64,000 nucleotides of DNA, taken from positions 67,220 through 131,219 of the forward strand of contig JABRVX010000004.1 of assembly GCA_039961735.1 (NCBI GenBank). The letters are read 5' to 3'. This DNA is from Fimbriimonadia bacterium. Lineage in GTDB: Bacteria; Armatimonadota; Fimbriimonadia; Fimbriimonadales; JABRVX01. Below the pieces are notes generated by a model. The model was not told where the DNA came from. It made no database searches and saw only the letters and a list, made by a program, of their open reading frames with translations. Below are positions 6,811 to 56,450 of this stretch, in pieces; the first letter of the stretch is position 1, and each line of letters starts with the position of its first letter. A program made the translations under genes and the position numbers.

Positions 6811-7455
6811 CTAGTTGCGACCCGATTTGGTAACCAACTCAGGATGCCACTTCACGCTGCCGTCGAGCAATAGGCCGTTGCCCCCGCGGCCGTGCGCCGT
6901 CAGTCCGAAGTCGGAGTCGGCAGTCAGCGCGACCCAGTCGCCGATGTAGTAGGTCTCGCTTGGGCCGGTCTTCAACCTCGCGACGCGAATGGCGAGCGTA
7001 CCGTTGGGGCCCCTATACTTGCGAAGGTACAGAAGAAGATGCGACATCTGATAGCTCGTGTATTGCTGTCGGTGGTCCTCGGGGTGGTCGTACTCCGCAG
7101 TGAACTCGGTGCCGCGGTGGCTGTCCGCGGGGCACCAGAACACCTCGTGTGACCTAGTATAGGTGGTCAGCGAGTCTCTCCACTCCTTGGGACGTCCGAC
7201 AACGGGAGTACTGAGCACTTTCGCGCGCTCACCGAGCTCCTTGACGGACTGAAGCGAGTGACACGGCAGCCAGCCCTGGTGGTCGTCCGCGTACATGATG
7301 ACCGCCTTGCCGATCTGGCCCAGGTTACTGCCGCAGCCGGAGACGAGGCTCCGTGCGCGAACCAAGTTCGAGACCGGCAGTGCGACCGCGATGAGCGCAA
7401 GGATGATCACCAGGACGACCAGTAGCTCGACGAGCGTAATGGCGCCTGCTCTCAT
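6811..7455 (-). CDS. Prepilin-like H-X9-DG protein, copy A
   Basis: 214 residues. The N-terminus is a type IV prepilin signal: short leader, Ala at -1, then ITLVELLVVLVIILALIAVA as hydrophobic helix with Glu at +5. The C-terminus has the H-X9-DG motif (HGRGGNGLLLDGSVKW), so it belongs to the prepilin-type H-X9-DG proteins that are abundant in Planctomycetes, Lentisphaerae and Armatimonadota. The ATG at 7455 follows GAGGT by 5 nt. Copy B at 8582-9229 is about as long and closely similar, and a third C-terminal remnant lies at 8462-8580. Role unknown: a pseudopilin or cell-surface protein. Confidence 0.88.
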   Translation of the reverse strand: MRAGAITLVELLVVLVIILALIAVALPVSNLVRARSLVSGCGSNLGQIGKAVIMYADDHQGWLPCHSLQSVKELGERAKVLSTPVVGRPKEWRDSLTTYTRSHEVFWCPADSHRGTEFTAEYDHPEDHRQQYTSYQMSHLLLYLRKYRGPNGTLAIRVARLKTGPSETYYIGDWVALTADSDFGLTAHGRGGNGLLLDGSVKWHPELVTKSGRN

Positions 7456-7495
7456 ACCGCACCTCACTTGCACTTGACTGGGCGATCCCTAGTCC

Positions 7496-8111: not shown

Positions 8112-8229
8112 GTCTTCCGTGTATCACTCTGCGAGATTCTTTCGATCTCGATGGCGCCTTCCGCGCAGCGAACCGACGACCCCGGACCCGTCCGACCCGC
8201 CCGCACCCTCCGACTCGTCCTGCACTCCT

Positions 8230-8432
8230 AGTTTGGAATACACTCTCCCCGTGCAAGCGCAACCCGAACCCAAGCGTGCGGTGGTGACCGGAGGGGCCGG
8301 CTTCCCCGGCTCCTACCTCGCCGAACGCTTCATCCGCGAGGGCCGGGCCGTGATGGTGCTTGACAACCTGATCCCCTGCAGCCCACGTAGCATCTAGCAG
8401 CGGCAACCCCGCCTTTCGCTTCATCGGGTGGG
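8230..8432 (+). pseudogene. Remnant of UDP-glucuronate decarboxylase gene (promoter and N-terminus)
   Basis: From TTTGGAATACACT through about 58 codons this segment matches the start of the intact gene at 11064, including the -10 box and GTG start (here 8251), the QAQPEPKR leader and the GGAGF nucleotide-binding motif (here GGAGFPGS instead of GGAGFLGS). After LDNLIPCSPRSI it meets an in-frame TAG, followed by a small deletion, and similarity ends near CGCTTCATC at 8425. The remaining two thirds of the gene are missing. This is a partial duplicate that has lost function. Confidence 0.85.
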
Positions 8433-8581: not shown

Positions 8582-9229
8582 TCATAGGGGATGATTCCGT
8601 TTCGCCACTGTCACCATCTTTGCGTACCACCTGACGCTGCCATCAAGGAAAAGCCCGTTGCCTCCGTGCCCGTGCGGGGTAACCCCGACGTCGGCGTCTA
8701 CCGGCAGTACGCTCCAGTCACCGATGTAGCAGGTATTGCTCGCACCGTGTTTGAGCTGCGAGAGACGAACGGCAAGTGAGCCATCGGGACCCCAGTACGA
8801 AGGACTATAGAGATTCAGGGCCATCTGGTAACTCGTGTACAGCTGGCGATGGTCGTCAGGCTCGTCGAGATCCGCGAGGAAGTCTGTACCCCTGTGGCGG
8901 TCGGCTGGGCACCAGAAGACTTCGTACGACCTGGTGTATGGCTTGAGCGACTCCCGCCACTCCTTGGGGCGACCGATTACCCTGTTGTCGGTTTGCCTAT
9001 GTGGGTCCCAGGCCATCGCGGATTGGACTGAATGACACGGCAGCCACCCTTCGTGGTCGTCTGAGTACATGAGAACGGCCTTGCCGATCTGGGATAGGCC
9101 GGCACCGCAACCAGACGCCAAACTTCTGGCCCTCGCGATGTTTACGACGGGTAGGACGATCGCGATGAGCGCGAGGATGATCACCAGGACGACCAGTAGC
9201 TCGACAAGCGTGAAGGCGCCTGCTTTCAT
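8582..9229 (-). CDS. Prepilin-like H-X9-DG protein, copy B
   Basis: 215 residues, close paralogue of copy A. It has KAGAFTLVELLVVLVIIL at the N-terminus with Ala at -1 and Glu at +5, a Cys in ASGCGAGLSQIGKA, VFWCPADRHRG, and the C-terminal HGHGGNGLFLDGSVRW. The ATG at 9229 has a weak GTGAG upstream and begins 10 nt after the stop of a 34-codon frame (9240-9344), so translation may be coupled. Expression probably comes from the promoter at 9396-9424. Predicted to be processed by prepilin peptidase and anchored or assembled at the cell surface. Confidence 0.87.
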   Translation of the reverse strand: MKAGAFTLVELLVVLVIILALIAIVLPVVNIARARSLASGCGAGLSQIGKAVLMYSDDHEGWLPCHSVQSAMAWDPHRQTDNRVIGRPKEWRESLKPYTRSYEVFWCPADRHRGTDFLADLDEPDDHRQLYTSYQMALNLYSPSYWGPDGSLAVRLSQLKHGASNTCYIGDWSVLPVDADVGVTPHGHGGNGLFLDGSVRWYAKMVTVAKRNHPL

Positions 9230-9239
9230 CTCACTTCGG

Positions 9240-9344
9240 CTAGTCTCCGACAGGCGCACGGTATGGCCACATGACACGAGCAGCAAGGGTGGCAGTGGAA
9301 AATACCACCCCTCCCCAGCATCCCAATGAAGTAAACTTCTTCAC
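9240..9344 (-). pseudogene. Truncated copy of the small membrane protein
   Basis: 34 codons from GTG 9344: KKFTSLGCWGGVVFSTATL aligns with KKLTSLACWGGVVLSTAIL of the gene at 7691-8038, then diverges and stops at a TAG just before prepilin B. AGAGGTG lies 8 nt before the GTG, so it could still be translated as a short leader peptide coupled to prepilin B. The loss of both later membrane segments and the Cys pairs suggests loss of original function. Confidence 0.7.
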
Positions 9345-10842: not shown

Positions 10843-11051
10843 CGACCAAACCATTAGACCTCGCGTATCGGGGCCTTCTAGGGACGAAAGCTCTTGGCTG
10901 CAGTCCGTAGCCCTCAGCCGAGGAGCGCGGAGAGCCCAGCGGGTGAAGTGCTAGCCTAGCGGGAGTGCGCGTACCTGTCCCGCGCTGCCGCCCAGTTTGC
11001 CCGGGCAGACCCGTCCACCGCTGCGACTCGTCCTGCAGACCCCGTTTGGAA

Positions 11052-11057
11052 TACACT
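11052..11057 (+). promoter_or_regulatory. -10 box implying leaderless transcription of the UXS gene
   Basis: TACACT ends 6 nt before the GTG start at 11064, so transcription should begin at or within a base of the start codon. No Shine-Dalgarno and no -35 are visible. The same box and spacing are kept in the pseudogene copy at 8239-8251. Confidence 0.6.
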
Positions 11058-11063
11058 CTCCCC

Positions 11064-12014
11064 GTGCAAGCACAACCCGAACCCAAGCGTGCGGTGGTGA
11101 CCGGAGGGGCCGGCTTTCTCGGCTCTCACCTCGCTGACCGCCTCATCCGAGAAGGCTGGACCGTGATCGTGCTCGACAACCTGATCACCGGCAGCCTAAG
11201 CAACATCGAGCACCTGTTCGGCAACCCCGCCTTTCGCTTCATCAAGTACGACGTCACCGAATACATCCACGTGGACGGGCCCGTGGATTTCGTGTTCCAC
11301 TTCGCCTCCCCCGCCAGCCCCGTGGACTTCGACCGTCTACCCATTCAGACGCTGAAGGTGGGTGCGCTCGGCACGCACAAGGCGCTGGGTCTGGCCAAGG
11401 CGAAGGGCGCGCGCTTTATGCTCGCTTCCACCTCCGAGGTATACGGCGACCCGCTGGTGCACCCGCAGCCGGAGGAGTATTGGGGCAACGTGAACCCCAT
11501 CGGCCCGCGCGGGGTGTACGACGAGGCCAAACGCTATGCCGAGTCGCTCACCATGGCCTATGCGCGATACCATGGCGTGGACGTGCGCATCGTGCGTCTG
11601 TTCAATACGTATGGCCCGCGAATGCGCATGGACGACGGGCGCGCGGTGCCCAACCTATTGACGCAGGCACTGACGGGCAAACCGCTGACCATCTACGGCG
11701 ACGGCAGTTACACGCGCAGCTTCGGCTATGTGGACGACATCCTGGAAGGCGTGTGGCGGCTGGCGTTCTCCGACTATGCAAGGCCAATGAACATCGGCTC
11801 CCTGCACGAGTTCACGATGCTAGAGCTGGTGGAAGTGATCCGGCGCGTCACCGGAACGAACGTGCCCGTCGAACACCACCCTCCCCTGCCCGACGATCCC
11901 AAGCGCAGGCAACCCGACATCACCAAGGCACGAACCATCCTCGGCTGGGAGCCCACCACTCCGCTGGAGGAGGGCCTGCGCATAACGGCTGAGGACTTCC
12001 GGAAGAGGCTCTAG
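11064..12014 (+). CDS. uxs: UDP-glucuronate decarboxylase (UDP-xylose synthase)
   Basis: 316 residues of the extended SDR family. Visible: GGAGFLGSH nucleotide-binding motif, [44 protein letters not shown] with the catalytic Tyr-x-x-x-Lys, and [14 protein letters not shown]..., [13 protein letters not shown] and YDE.KR are hallmarks of UXS, which converts UDP-glucuronate to UDP-xylose for surface polysaccharides; dTDP-glucose dehydratases differ here. The GTG at 11064 is preferred because the intact and remnant copies both keep QAQPEPKR after it and a -10 box immediately before it; in-frame sequence further upstream looks non-coding. Confidence 0.88.
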
Positions 12015-12155: not shown

Positions 12156-13349
12156 CTACCTGGAGAAGACTCCGCCCATCTCGAACCGTCGAGCCGAGGC
12201 CGCCAGGACGGCGCCGACAGCCATCCCAATCACATAGCCATAGGGTAGTCCCACCGCCATCAGCCCTACCATCAGTGCGATGGGGAGAGCATAACGCGGC
12301 ACGTCGGGGGCAGCTTGGTCCCGCACTAACACCATCAGTGCCAGTCCTTCGAACGCCAGGATCACCCCGAGGATCGGCTTCGGGAAAACCTGAATGACCG
12401 AAGCGAAACCCCCGCTGAGAAACAGACCCAGCACCAGGTACATCGCACCGTAGATCACCACCGACCCGCCCGTGCGCGCCCCGAAGGCATAGTGACCGGC
12501 CAGCCCGCCGGAACCGTGGCACGTCGGGACGCCACCGAAGAAGGGGTTGATGAGATTCATCACCGAATAGGTGAAGCCGATCTTACGCAAGCTTATGGGG
12601 CGCTCCGGGAAATAGTCGGCCACGAGCTGCTTAGTAGCCAGCACGGAGTTGCCGAGCGAGAGCGGTATCTGCGGCAGGGCGAGCAACACGAACCCGGTCC
12701 AGACCTCGGCCCACCCGATGGTCCTGACCTCCGGAAGCCGAAGACCCAATCCGTCGAGTGCCCCGGCGACTGGCGCCTTGGCGACGAGCGCATAAAGCAC
12801 TCCCAGTCCGATCACGAACAGGGCTGCGGGGTACTTCCGGTTGCCGAGGAACATGATGGCAAGAACGAAGCCCGCCCCCGCAAGCCAAAAACCCGCGACA
12901 CCTTCGGCCGGGACGAACTCGCGGAGCGCAAGCGTGGAGAGCTGCAACCCGAGCCCGAACTGAATGCCGCGGATCACCAGCTTGGGGATCAGCCGCGCCA
13001 ATAGGTCCAGCCCGCCGGTGACGGTGAGCACCAGCATGACGAGCCCGATGGCCAGTCCGGCGCCGTACACTACGTCTGCCGAAAGTTTTTGGGCGATGAC
13101 GAGCGCGGCGACCGCTTTGAGCGGCTGCACCGGGATCGGCATCCGATACCATAGTGCCGTCAGCACCTGCATCGCGCCGAACAGGATGAGTACGCTCGCG
13201 GCATCCAGCCCTGCAACCAGGATCATGCCCACAATGAGCGGCAGGTCCGTGCCGATGTCGCCGAATGCGCCCGCGAACTCGTTGCGGTCGAAGCGGATTG
13301 GGGGCTTACCAGAAGTCACGCGGCTCGGCTGGGGCTCGACGGCGGCCAT
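12156..13349 (-). CDS. MOT1-type molybdate/sulfate permease
   Basis: 397 residues, 10-12 hydrophobic segments. The family signatures of the MOT1 branch of SulP-like transporters are present: FAGAFGDIGTDLPLIVGM, MPIPVQPLKAVAALVIAQ, and GGVPTCHGSGGLAGHYAFGAR. MOT1 proteins import molybdate; sulfate or selenate transport by relatives is possible. The gene starts 33 nt after the tRNA-Sec 3' end on the same strand, behind selD. This suggests oxyanion supply for a molybdenum- and selenium-dependent enzyme such as formate dehydrogenase, but no such enzyme gene is in the window. Confidence 0.8.
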   Translation of the reverse strand: MAAVEPQPSRVTSGKPPIRFDRNEFAGAFGDIGTDLPLIVGMILVAGLDAASVLILFGAMQVLTALWYRMPIPVQPLKAVAALVIAQKLSADVVYGAGLAIGLVMLVLTVTGGLDLLARLIPKLVIRGIQFGLGLQLSTLALREFVPAEGVAGFWLAGAGFVLAIMFLGNRKYPAALFVIGLGVLYALVAKAPVAGALDGLGLRLPEVRTIGWAEVWTGFVLLALPQIPLSLGNSVLATKQLVADYFPERPISLRKIGFTYSVMNLINPFFGGVPTCHGSGGLAGHYAFGARTGGSVVIYGAMYLVLGLFLSGGFASVIQVFPKPILGVILAFEGLALMVLVRDQAAPDVPRYALPIALMVGLMAVGLPYGYVIGMAVGAVLAASARRFEMGGVFSR

Positions 13350-13382
13350 GGGGCCTATCTTGGCACAGTCACAGGCGCGCGG

Positions 13383-13476
13383 TGGCGGGAGCGTGTGGGA
13401 ATCGAACCCACCTGACCCGTTTCCGAGTCACAACGGTTTTGAAGACCGCGGGGCACACCAGCACCCATTCGCCCCC
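13383..13476 (-). tRNA. selC: tRNA-Sec, anticodon TCA
   Basis: 94 nt with CCA encoded. I can fold: acceptor GGGGGCG/CGCTCCC (7 bp, with an A-A opposition at position 8), a 6-bp D stem GGGTGC/GTGCCC with TGGT loop, anticodon stem GCGGT/ACCGT with loop CTTCAAA (anticodon TCA), a long variable arm TGACTCG-GAAA-CGGGTCA (7 bp), T arm GTGGG-TTCGATT-CCCAC, discriminator G. The long acceptor branch, 6-bp D stem and TCA anticodon identify tRNA-Sec. It begins 16 nt after selD, so the two are probably cotranscribed. Confidence 0.96.
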
Positions 13477-13492
13477 GCGACAGAATACCGGC

Positions 13493-14515
13493 TCAGGCCA
13501 CGAAGATGCGCGGCGGGCCTTCCTCGACGACCCCGATGTCCGCGGCGCCGGGCAACTCGGCGAGCAGCGCGTCCACATGCTCCGGCGCAACGAACAACGC
13601 CAGCCCCCCGGAGGTCTGCGGATCCACCACCAGTTTTCTCATCTCCTCCGGCACGCCCGGCGCGAACTCCAGGAGGTCCTCCAGCCACGAATGGTTGGCA
13701 AAGGCCCCGCCTGGAGAATGCCCCTCAGCAGCCAACCGCCTCGCCTCCGGAAGCAGCGGCAAGCGCTCGGACTGCAACCGCAACTCGACCCCCGAAGCCC
13801 GCGCGACATGTGAAAGGTGCCCGGCGAGTCCGAAACCGGTGATGTCCGTGCCGGTGCGCACGCCGTGCCTCACTGCAGCGTAGGCCGCATCTCGGTTCAG
13901 CCGCGTCATCGAGGCACATGCGGCCTCCAGCGCGTGTGGCGGACACGAATCGAACTTCGCGGCGGTGGTGATCACTCCGGTGCCCAGCGGCTTGGTCAGG
14001 ACGATGCGCTGGCCGGGCCTCGCATCCTTGTTGGTGATGGCCTGGCCAGGGTTGACGATGCCCGTCACGGCCATGCCGAACTTCGGCTCTTTGTCCTCCA
14101 CGCTGTGTCCGCCCACCACGACGGCCCCAGCTTCGATCACCTTCTCGTATCCCCCTAGCAAGATGCGGCTCAGCACCTCGGGTGGCGCTACACCCGCCGG
14201 GAAGCACAGGATGTTCAGCGCGGTGAGCGGCCGGCCACCCATCGCGTACACGTCGCTGAGCGCGTTGGCAGCGGCGATGGCGCCGAACAGATACGGGTCG
14301 TCCACGATAGGCGTGAAAAAGTCCACCGTCTGCACCAACGCGGTACCGTCGGGCAGCAGGTAAACGCCCGCGTCGTCCGCCGTATCCAGGCCGACGAGCA
14401 GATTCGGGTCTGTCGGGATGGGGAGCCCGCGGAGGACCTCCGCGAGTTGGGCGGGGCCCAGCTTACTCGCTCAACCCGCGCAGGCGACCATCTGGGTAAG
14501 CCGTATCTCGCTCAC
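13493..14515 (-). CDS. selD: Selenide, water dikinase SelD, itself a selenoprotein (in-frame TGA)
   Basis: 340 residues when TGA at 14473-14471 is read as selenocysteine (residue 15). The frame reads EIRLTQMVACAG-U-ASKLGPAQL, placing Sec at the position of the catalytic Cys17 of E. coli SelD with the essential Lys three residues later (Sec15-x-x-Lys18). After that come LVGLDTADDAGVYLL, VQTVDFFTPIVDDP, NALSDVYAMGG, GGHSVEDKEPKFG, TKPLGTGV, DITGFGLAGHL and DPQTSGGLALFV, all canonical. SelD makes selenophosphate from selenide and ATP. Conventional calling would start at 14338 and lose the active site. The GTG at 14515 lies 6 nt after a TATACT box; ATG 14539 is an in-frame alternative. Confidence 0.95.
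14442..14470 (-). promoter_or_regulatory. Candidate bacterial SECIS hairpin in selD
   Basis: Immediately 3' of the Sec TGA the minus strand folds as GCGAGT (6 bp with ACTCGC), a 4-nt 5' bulge AAGC, then TGGGC/GCCCA (5 bp) closing a CCC loop. Position directly after UGA fits bacterial SECIS elements read by SelB; the loop does not match the E. coli fdhF consensus, so pairing is seen but recognition is inferred. Confidence 0.6.
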
Positions 14516-14566: not shown

Positions 14567-15694
14567 CTACCCGTTGTAGATGATGCGCTTCACGACGTCA
14601 ATCGTCTCGGCGGCGTCACCTGTGGATTGTGCACGGCGGAGGTCGTCACGGCGGGCGTAGACCAGCAGCGCCTTCTTCATGGCATTGGCGAAGAACTCCT
14701 TGCTGAGCGCCATCGCCCGCACCTGCTCCGTGCGATACGTAAACTGATCTTCACCGAACCACCCATCGTAGCCAGTATCCACCGCGGCATAGCAGAACTC
14801 CACCAAACGCCAGATGTCATCCGTGCCGGTGATACGATCCTCGTCGTTCGAGTTGTACTTCGCGGCGTTGATGTGGAAGTTGGCGATAGGCACTCCCATG
14901 CGCTTGAGCAGGTACAGGCTGTCCGCGGGCTGATTACCTACCATCTGTTCGTGCCCGTAATCTATCACCACGCCCATCACCGTCTTGCCGAGGTTCTTGT
15001 TGACCTCGAGAGCAACCAATGCGGCTTTGCCCACGGTATTCACGATCATGTTGCCTTCGCGCGGCTCCTTCTGCTTCGCCTCGGTGCCGAACTTCAGGCC
15101 TAACTGCGCCGCCCGCTCAGCGATGGCAGTACAACCCTCGATGAACCAATCGAGCCGCTCGCCGTAATCCACCTCGAAGTGATAGTCCCACCCATCGGAT
15201 CCGGGCCACAATTGACAGGACGCGCACCCCAGCTCCTTGCCAATCTCTACCCCTTGCAGGCAGAGTGCTAGGCAATCCCTTCGCACCCCCGGATCGGGAT
15301 GGGTAACACCACCGAACTTCCACTTAGGATCGGACCACGTGTTCATGTTCATGTTGGTGCAGACGACACCGTGCTCGGCGAGTGCTGCACGCACGCTTTC
15401 GATGCGTCGCTGGTCCTTTGCATAGTGAGCATCTATGAAGCAGCGTTCGTGAAACTCGATGCCTTTGATACCAGCCGCCTTCACCCTTGCGATCTGAGCC
15501 TCTTCGGAGGCGTCGAAATCGGTGTTACTATTGTAGCCATCGGGGCAAAAGCGGTCGCGAAACTCCCCCGCGCACCAGTGCCCAGCGGAGAAGTTGATGC
15601 CGTACTCGTCCAGGAAGCGATTGACCTTGTCGCCTTCCAGATAGCCACCGTACTCGGTCGACAGCTTAGCTAGCTTGTCGGAAGATACGTTCAT
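14567..15694 (-). CDS. Xylose-isomerase-like TIM-barrel protein (sugar isomerase/epimerase)
   Basis: 375 residues. TIM-barrel features of the xylose isomerase-like superfamily are present: GIKGIEFHERCF, SCQLWPGSDGWDYHF, FGTEAKQKEPRE with an acidic metal ligand, GVVIDYGHEQMVG with Asp/His, and WFGEDQFTYR. The substrate is not predictable; a pentose/hexose isomerase or keto-sugar epimerase is likely, in line with other carbohydrate genes here. The ATG at 15694 follows GAGGT by 6 nt; the longer open frame upstream crosses an inverted repeat and is rejected. It lies 51 nt upstream of selD but selD has its own promoter. Confidence 0.78.
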   Translation of the reverse strand: MNVSSDKLAKLSTEYGGYLEGDKVNRFLDEYGINFSAGHWCAGEFRDRFCPDGYNSNTDFDASEEAQIARVKAAGIKGIEFHERCFIDAHYAKDQRRIESVRAALAEHGVVCTNMNMNTWSDPKWKFGGVTHPDPGVRRDCLALCLQGVEIGKELGCASCQLWPGSDGWDYHFEVDYGERLDWFIEGCTAIAERAAQLGLKFGTEAKQKEPREGNMIVNTVGKAALVALEVNKNLGKTVMGVVIDYGHEQMVGNQPADSLYLLKRMGVPIANFHINAAKYNSNDEDRITGTDDIWRLVEFCYAAVDTGYDGWFGEDQFTYRTEQVRAMALSKEFFANAMKKALLVYARRDDLRRAQSTGDAAETIDVVKRIIYNG

Positions 15695-15871
15695 TTCGGA
15701 CCTCGGATGTTCGTGCTGCTCAGCCTCTTCGCCGCTCGCCCGCCCTCTCCCTGCCTCAGCGGGCAAGCTGTCCACCATTCTGGTCGGCGATGCGCCCCGC
15801 GGCGGCGCGTCACACATGCATCCCGTGAAGTCCGATCCCCGCCGCCCGCTATGGCGCAACACCGCAGAACC

Positions 15872-15976
15872 GTCGTGCTGAGCCCGTCGAAGCATGCCCA
15901 CGCTTGCCCCGATCACTGCATCTCTGCGTGGTGGCGTGCGATTTCCGACCGCATGCTTCGACGGGCTCAGCACGAC
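15872..15976. repeat. Inverted repeat, 26-bp perfect arms (dispersed palindromic element)
   Basis: Arms at 15872-15897 and 15951-15976 are exact reverse complements (GTCGTGCTGAGCCCGTCG.. / ..CGACGGGCTCAGCACGAC). Related single or paired arms occur at 43312-43337 and 56347-56450. This fills most of the 356-nt gap between two minus-strand genes; I see no gene in the rest of 15695-16050. Confidence 0.85.
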
Positions 15977-16050
15977 GGGCTACCGCAATGGATAATCACC
16001 TACTGGGTCAGCGGATGTCAGATCACAGGAGTTGTCAGACCTGCGACGTA

Positions 16051-43311: not shown

Positions 43312-43337
43312 CGTCATGCGGAGACTGTCGAAGCATG
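43312..43337 (+). repeat. Single copy of dispersed palindromic element
   Basis: CGTCATGCGGAGACTGTCGA... differs at two of 26 positions from the arm at 56347-56372. Its ends (CGTCATGC/GCATGACG) also pair with each other. It lies in the 143-nt gap between convergent genes and may act as a terminator. Confidence 0.65.
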
Positions 43338-56346: not shown

Positions 56347-56450
56347 CGTCATGCTGAGCCTGTCGAAGCATGTGACCGGTGGCCGCTGGGTAGTACCTAC
56401 GTGTGAAACAGGTGGGACAGGCCATGGCATGCTTCCACAAGCTCAGCATG
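56347..56450. repeat. Inverted repeat of the dispersed palindromic element
   Basis: Arm 56347-56372 (CGTCATGCTGAGCCTGTCGA...) and the complementary arm 56428-56450 match at 21 of 23 positions. Same family as 15872-15976. It lies between convergent trpB2 and mdh and could terminate both. Confidence 0.75.

Follow-up and report, generated by a model that had tools for sequence, protein, structure and literature searches.

Clusters of sel genes have precedents in bacteria. One is the selDABC cluster of Eubacterium acidaminophilum (Gursinsky et al. 2000, cited in PMC4517662), and another is provided by selABC operons (PMC5330540). Judged by these precedents, a tRNA-Sec made with the genes of its own pathway is not new. 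Bacterial PF16983 proteins are treated as molybdate transporters in sulfate reducers (PMC5840216). No dedicated high-affinity importer of selenium is known so far from prokaryotes (PMC13188914); hence, a permease gene lying next to selenium genes deserved to be checked.

We analyzed a locus of this kind in a 64,000-nt window, the whole stretch of DNA considered here, which is positions 67220-131219 of contig C4 of a Fimbriimonadia genome (G000, the host genome). The assembly comprises 3.2 Mb in 77 contigs, and the host is the sole representative of its own family among the genomes compared. The features of the locus, in window coordinates, are as follows.

15870..15978, no strand: perfect inverted repeat with 28-nt arms and 53 nt between the arms, CCGTCGTGCTGAGCCCGTCGAAGCATGC
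14567..15697, minus strand: TIM-barrel protein resembling xylose isomerase (PF01261); selD starts about 50 nt downstream
13493..14515, minus strand: selD, encoding selenophosphate synthetase (340 aa, residue 15 being Sec), start codon GTG
14471..14473, minus strand: in-frame TGA, codon 15 of selD, read as Sec in the context VACAG-U-ASKLG
14427..14445, minus strand: probable bacterial SECIS hairpin, 7 pairs and a 5-nt loop with GU; the distance from the Sec codon's first base to the hairpin start is 28 nt
13477..13492, minus strand: 16-nt gap between the end of selD (13493, stop codon included) and tRNA-Sec
13383..13476, minus strand: tRNA-Sec, anticodon TCA, identified by ARAGORN, Rfam RF01852, and its fold
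13350..13382, minus strand: 33-nt gap between the tRNA-Sec end (13383) and the permease ATG (13349)
12156..13349, minus strand: MOT1-family permease (P0002), 397 aa, PF16983

The initial annotation described selD, tRNA-Sec, and the permease as three successive genes on one strand with gaps of 16 and 33 nt, and the coordinates bear this out to the base. Our overall reading is that the locus is quite probably a small sel cluster of a recurring type with a functionally separate MOT1 molybdate importer directly behind it, the latter arrangement being lineage-specific.

The 16-nt gap contained no terminator-like site in the scan, and the 33-nt gap showed neither a promoter-like nor a terminator-like site in a scan outside of which the promoters of the host phylum lie. 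Inspection of the 33-nt gap revealed no Shine-Dalgarno-like GGAG, GAGG, or AGGA ahead of the permease ATG. Leaderless starts of the TANNNT type were considered as a rule of the host genome and rejected as unconvincing (4 of 65 genes vs. 1.7 expected). A TATACT box is located 6 nt ahead of the selD start; given this box, selD at least may own a promoter. Because the PF01261 gene lies on the same strand just upstream, selD is perhaps not the first gene of the transcript; the PF01261 gene, whose start codon is a provisional call, is a possible first gene. The inverted repeat beyond it may be the upstream boundary of the transcription unit. This repeat looks like a dispersed palindromic repeat: a similar copy of the 28-nt repeat occurs at 43319, and a second, imperfect pair with equal spacing occurs at 56354 and 56446. 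Elsewhere in the window, 8208-8399 and 11021-11212 are 86% identical over 192 nt, which represents a truncated second copy of the start of an epimerase gene (10965-12014). The prepilin-like genes 6811-7473 and 8582-9286, near the truncated copy, also appear duplicated.

The recurrence of the gene order was surveyed in 291 genomes of the phylum, with tRNA-Sec counted at 57 bits or more. Among the matches listed, tRNA-Sec was present in at least 148 genomes, selD in 144, and both in at least 137. In 28 of the 137 genomes having both, selD preceded tRNA-Sec on the same strand at a distance of no more than 600 nt, and no other orientation within 600 nt was found in any of the 137 (again among the matches listed); pairs with weaker tRNA matches (below 57 bits) are possibly absent from this count, and 28 is to be read as at least 28. 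The remaining 27 pair-bearing genomes all fall outside the host's order, in which the host is alone among the matches listed; for the host pair, inheritance and re-formation are thus indistinguishable. Among the pair loci opened, three relatives (G003, G031, and G038) have the order selA-selD-tRNA-Sec. What follows tRNA-Sec varies: tRNA-Ala in G031 and G038, and short proteins with no assigned function in G003. In loci L129 and L130, a tRNA-Ala gene comes after selA-selD-tRNA-Sec in the same direction, and the next gene in L129 encodes a BioY-like protein.

selD and tRNA-Sec are therefore adjacent, on the same strand, and recurrent in relatives, and the pair is a genuine sel cluster that recurs and belongs to a known type. 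The initial annotation had proposed a tRNA processed from an mRNA of its own pathway. That part stands for selD and tRNA-Sec, whose co-expression is likely, as they form a tight unit with an order that recurs in relatives; the permease, which the proposal had included, is not supported as a member of the unit. Alternatively, selD, tRNA-Sec, and the permease could each have their own signals and be neighbors by chance, with no common transcript. The TATACT box before selD and the position of host-phylum promoters beyond the coverage of the scan would agree with this. However, 28 recurrences of selD-tRNA-Sec in a single orientation (among the matches listed) are not chance, and gaps of 16 and 33 nt scarcely accommodate a promoter, which makes separate transcription improbable.

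The SelD protein scored 370.9 bits against TIGR00476 (cut-off, 125). The in-frame TGA at codon 15, on which the initial annotation was silent, is found at an identical position and in an identical context in 16 distinct selD sequences from the host and its relatives, and the majority of SelD matches in the phylum also have one in-frame TGA. selD is itself a selenoprotein gene. The hairpin behind the TGA was paired in 99.1% of cells across the 16 distinct sequences, with two-sided changes in 16 cells. Its covariation was 0.542 compared with 0.012-0.087 in slid controls (16 sequences), a comparison biased in its favor because its pairs were picked on the same 16 sequences as were scored. Despite this selection bias, the two-sided changes are hard to account for otherwise. 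When the SECIS region of the host was folded alone, its stability was not unusual (z = -1.14); the conserved hairpin emerged solely through the comparison of relatives. The hairpin has the expected form of a bacterial SECIS, and it is probably the SECIS of selD.

The tRNA-Sec gene scored 79.1 bits against Rfam RF01852 (gathering score, 47), and its CCA is genomically encoded at 13385-13383. selA is located on contig 60 and selB on contig 20, and the locus is accordingly not a selABC or selDABC cluster in the strict sense. The host genome thus contains SelA, SelB, SelD, and tRNA-Sec, together with a UGA-containing gene with a covarying hairpin (selD), the combination that marks Sec decoding. 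Searches of the host genome for YbbB/MnmH (TIGR03167), the selenouridine trait, for YedE (TIGR04112), and for YqeB (TIGR03309), a marker of selenium-dependent molybdenum hydroxylases, found none of the three. SelD as the sole selenoprotein has been reported from other bacteria, together with YbbB there (PMC1794560).

A more elaborate possibility, to which we give little credence, is that codon 15 of selD, the UGA, acts as a gate by which selenium controls the entire transcript. With little Sec-tRNA, ribosomes would stop at codon 15, transcription of the part left untranslated would terminate early (polarity), and tRNA-Sec and permease expression would fall; when selenium is present, the UGA would be read through and more tRNA-Sec would be made, a positive feedback. 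If this doubtful scheme held, the recurring order of selD before tRNA-Sec would be its signature.

The permease contains two PF16983 (MFS_MOT1) stretches with a score of 182.5 bits (cut-off, 30), which places it in the MOT1 family. It had no match in NCBIfam, including YedE TIGR04112, and no match by sequence among solved structures. Its start is supported by a relative in G068, a genome of the host's order, which begins with the identical residues MAAV. In G068, the permease is 54-61% identical and adjoins a TetR-like gene, and selD and tRNA-Sec lie on other contigs. Relatives of the permease occur in 12 of the 291 phylum genomes, and only in the host genome is one beside selD or tRNA-Sec. 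Twenty-one named loci with relatives of 45-62% identity, from Acidobacteriota, Verrucomicrobiota, Planctomycetota, Bacteroidota, Chloroflexota, and others, had no SelD within up to 8 kb on each side. Near the G174 permease, ARAGORN predicted a tRNA-Pyl; it was rejected because it falls within an open reading frame and matches nothing in Rfam. The position of the permease among several phyla was not settled in the tree, so neither inheritance nor transfer is demonstrated.

The lone sign in favor of a link between the permease and selenium is co-occurrence: selD is present in 10 of 12 genomes with the permease and in 134 of 279 without it (Fisher p = 0.019, uncorrected for relatedness). This may mirror a shared redox lifestyle. 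As for the position of the permease, any single gene behind tRNA-Sec could have seemed meaningful, and, given several oxyanion or redox genes in each genome, such an apparent link would not be rare by chance.

The neighborhoods of the relatives point to molybdenum. Ten of the 21 named loci carry molybdenum genes, and as these ten come from four lineages, they count as four observations. ModE is found at L035, L036, L037, L044, and L045; FdhD, MoaA, MoeB, and MobA at L041; FdhD and MoaA at L047; and a ModA-type solute-binding protein at L049-L051. The host genome encodes three molybdopterin oxidoreductases and a MobA-like protein, and no ModA (PF13531) was found in it, while all 14 control genomes gave matches. 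A molybdate importer is therefore expected in the host, and the permease is the candidate. Judging from the neighbors of its relatives, it most likely imports molybdate. No strong ModA-like match occurs in the seven genomes whose permease is at least 52% identical, and genomes with strong ModA matches have no such permease, bar one divergent case; the numbers are too few for significance, and mutual exclusion of MOT1 and ModA was not retained as a result.

The initial annotation also raised the option that the permease carries selenate or selenite; in that case, it could supply SelD. Its adjacency to the sel genes fits this idea, as does the absence from the host genome of YedE, the known selenium-associated permease. 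The idea found no support among the relatives of the permease, which adjoin molybdenum genes and not SelD or SelA. Moreover, 134 of the 144 selD-bearing genomes of the phylum lack the permease, which is therefore dispensable for Sec use. We regard selenium import as very unlikely, and the host permease is probably not a dedicated selenium importer.

A further proposal was that the whole locus forms one functional unit, in which the selenium genes and a molybdate importer together feed a Mo/Se enzyme, such as a Sec-containing formate dehydrogenase. The tight co-orientation of the three genes, the lack of promoter- or terminator-like sites between them in the scan, and the mild co-occurrence of permease and selD would suit such a unit. 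PF00384 gave four matches in the host genome: one DMSO-reductase-II-like, two PhsA-like, and one NuoG-like by its N-terminus. When these proteins were read out and classified, none of the four had an in-frame TGA or other in-frame stop (assembly completeness, 98.9%), and the three molybdopterin oxidoreductases all fell below the formate dehydrogenase cut-offs. Hence, no PF00384 protein with an in-frame TGA at the active site, as in a Sec-dependent formate dehydrogenase, was found, nor, in the absence of YqeB, the mark of a selenium-dependent molybdenum hydroxylase. The three-gene order also did not recur in the phylum genomes or the 21 named loci, an outcome that counts against the permease by the initial annotation's own test. 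Molybdate supply to a Mo/Se enzyme and membership of the permease in a selenium unit were both abandoned on these grounds, and a single functional unit appears unlikely. In the host genome, locus L110 (797-7000) encodes a molybdopterin oxidoreductase of DMSO-reductase type II and an iron-sulfur subunit near genes resembling MobA and NarK; from its gene content, it is likely a nitrate or other anaerobic respiration locus.

Under the preferred reading, a recurring sel pair followed by a separate molybdate importer, selD and tRNA-Sec would be transcribed jointly, and RNase P and 3' processing would free tRNA-Sec from the selD transcript. Once loaded with Ser, the tRNA would be converted by SelA, whose gene lies elsewhere, with the selenophosphate made by SelD. 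SelB, aided by the hairpin, would then read the UGA at selD codon 15 with the resulting Sec-tRNA. Owing to its position, the permease would perhaps be transcribed by read-through, and it would serve molybdopterin enzymes rather than selenium use.

The signal of this eye-catching locus thus resides in its selD-tRNA-Sec half. selD needs tRNA-Sec for its own decoding and the order is widespread in the phylum, which allows a simple feedback hypothesis to be put to the test. The permease half warns that one neighbor is a poor guide to function.

Compared with known systems, the locus resembles selDABC (cited in PMC4517662) and selABC (PMC5330540) in that tRNA-Sec and genes for Sec synthesis are clustered and share one orientation. 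It differs from both in that selA and selB are on other contigs, and tRNA-Sec directly follows selD and is itself followed by a MOT1 permease. Like bacterial MOT1 (PF16983) transporters (PMC5840216), the permease has two PF16983 domains, and its close relatives adjoin Mo-cofactor and ModE genes. Unlike other MOT1 proteins, it sits behind tRNA-Sec and its transport function is predicted, and its relatives in the phylum are few and located elsewhere. Like YedE (TIGR04112; PMC5322559), it is a multi-spanning membrane protein adjoining selenium genes; in contrast to YedE, which the host lacks in our search, it belongs to a different family and is without YedE's recurring link to selD.
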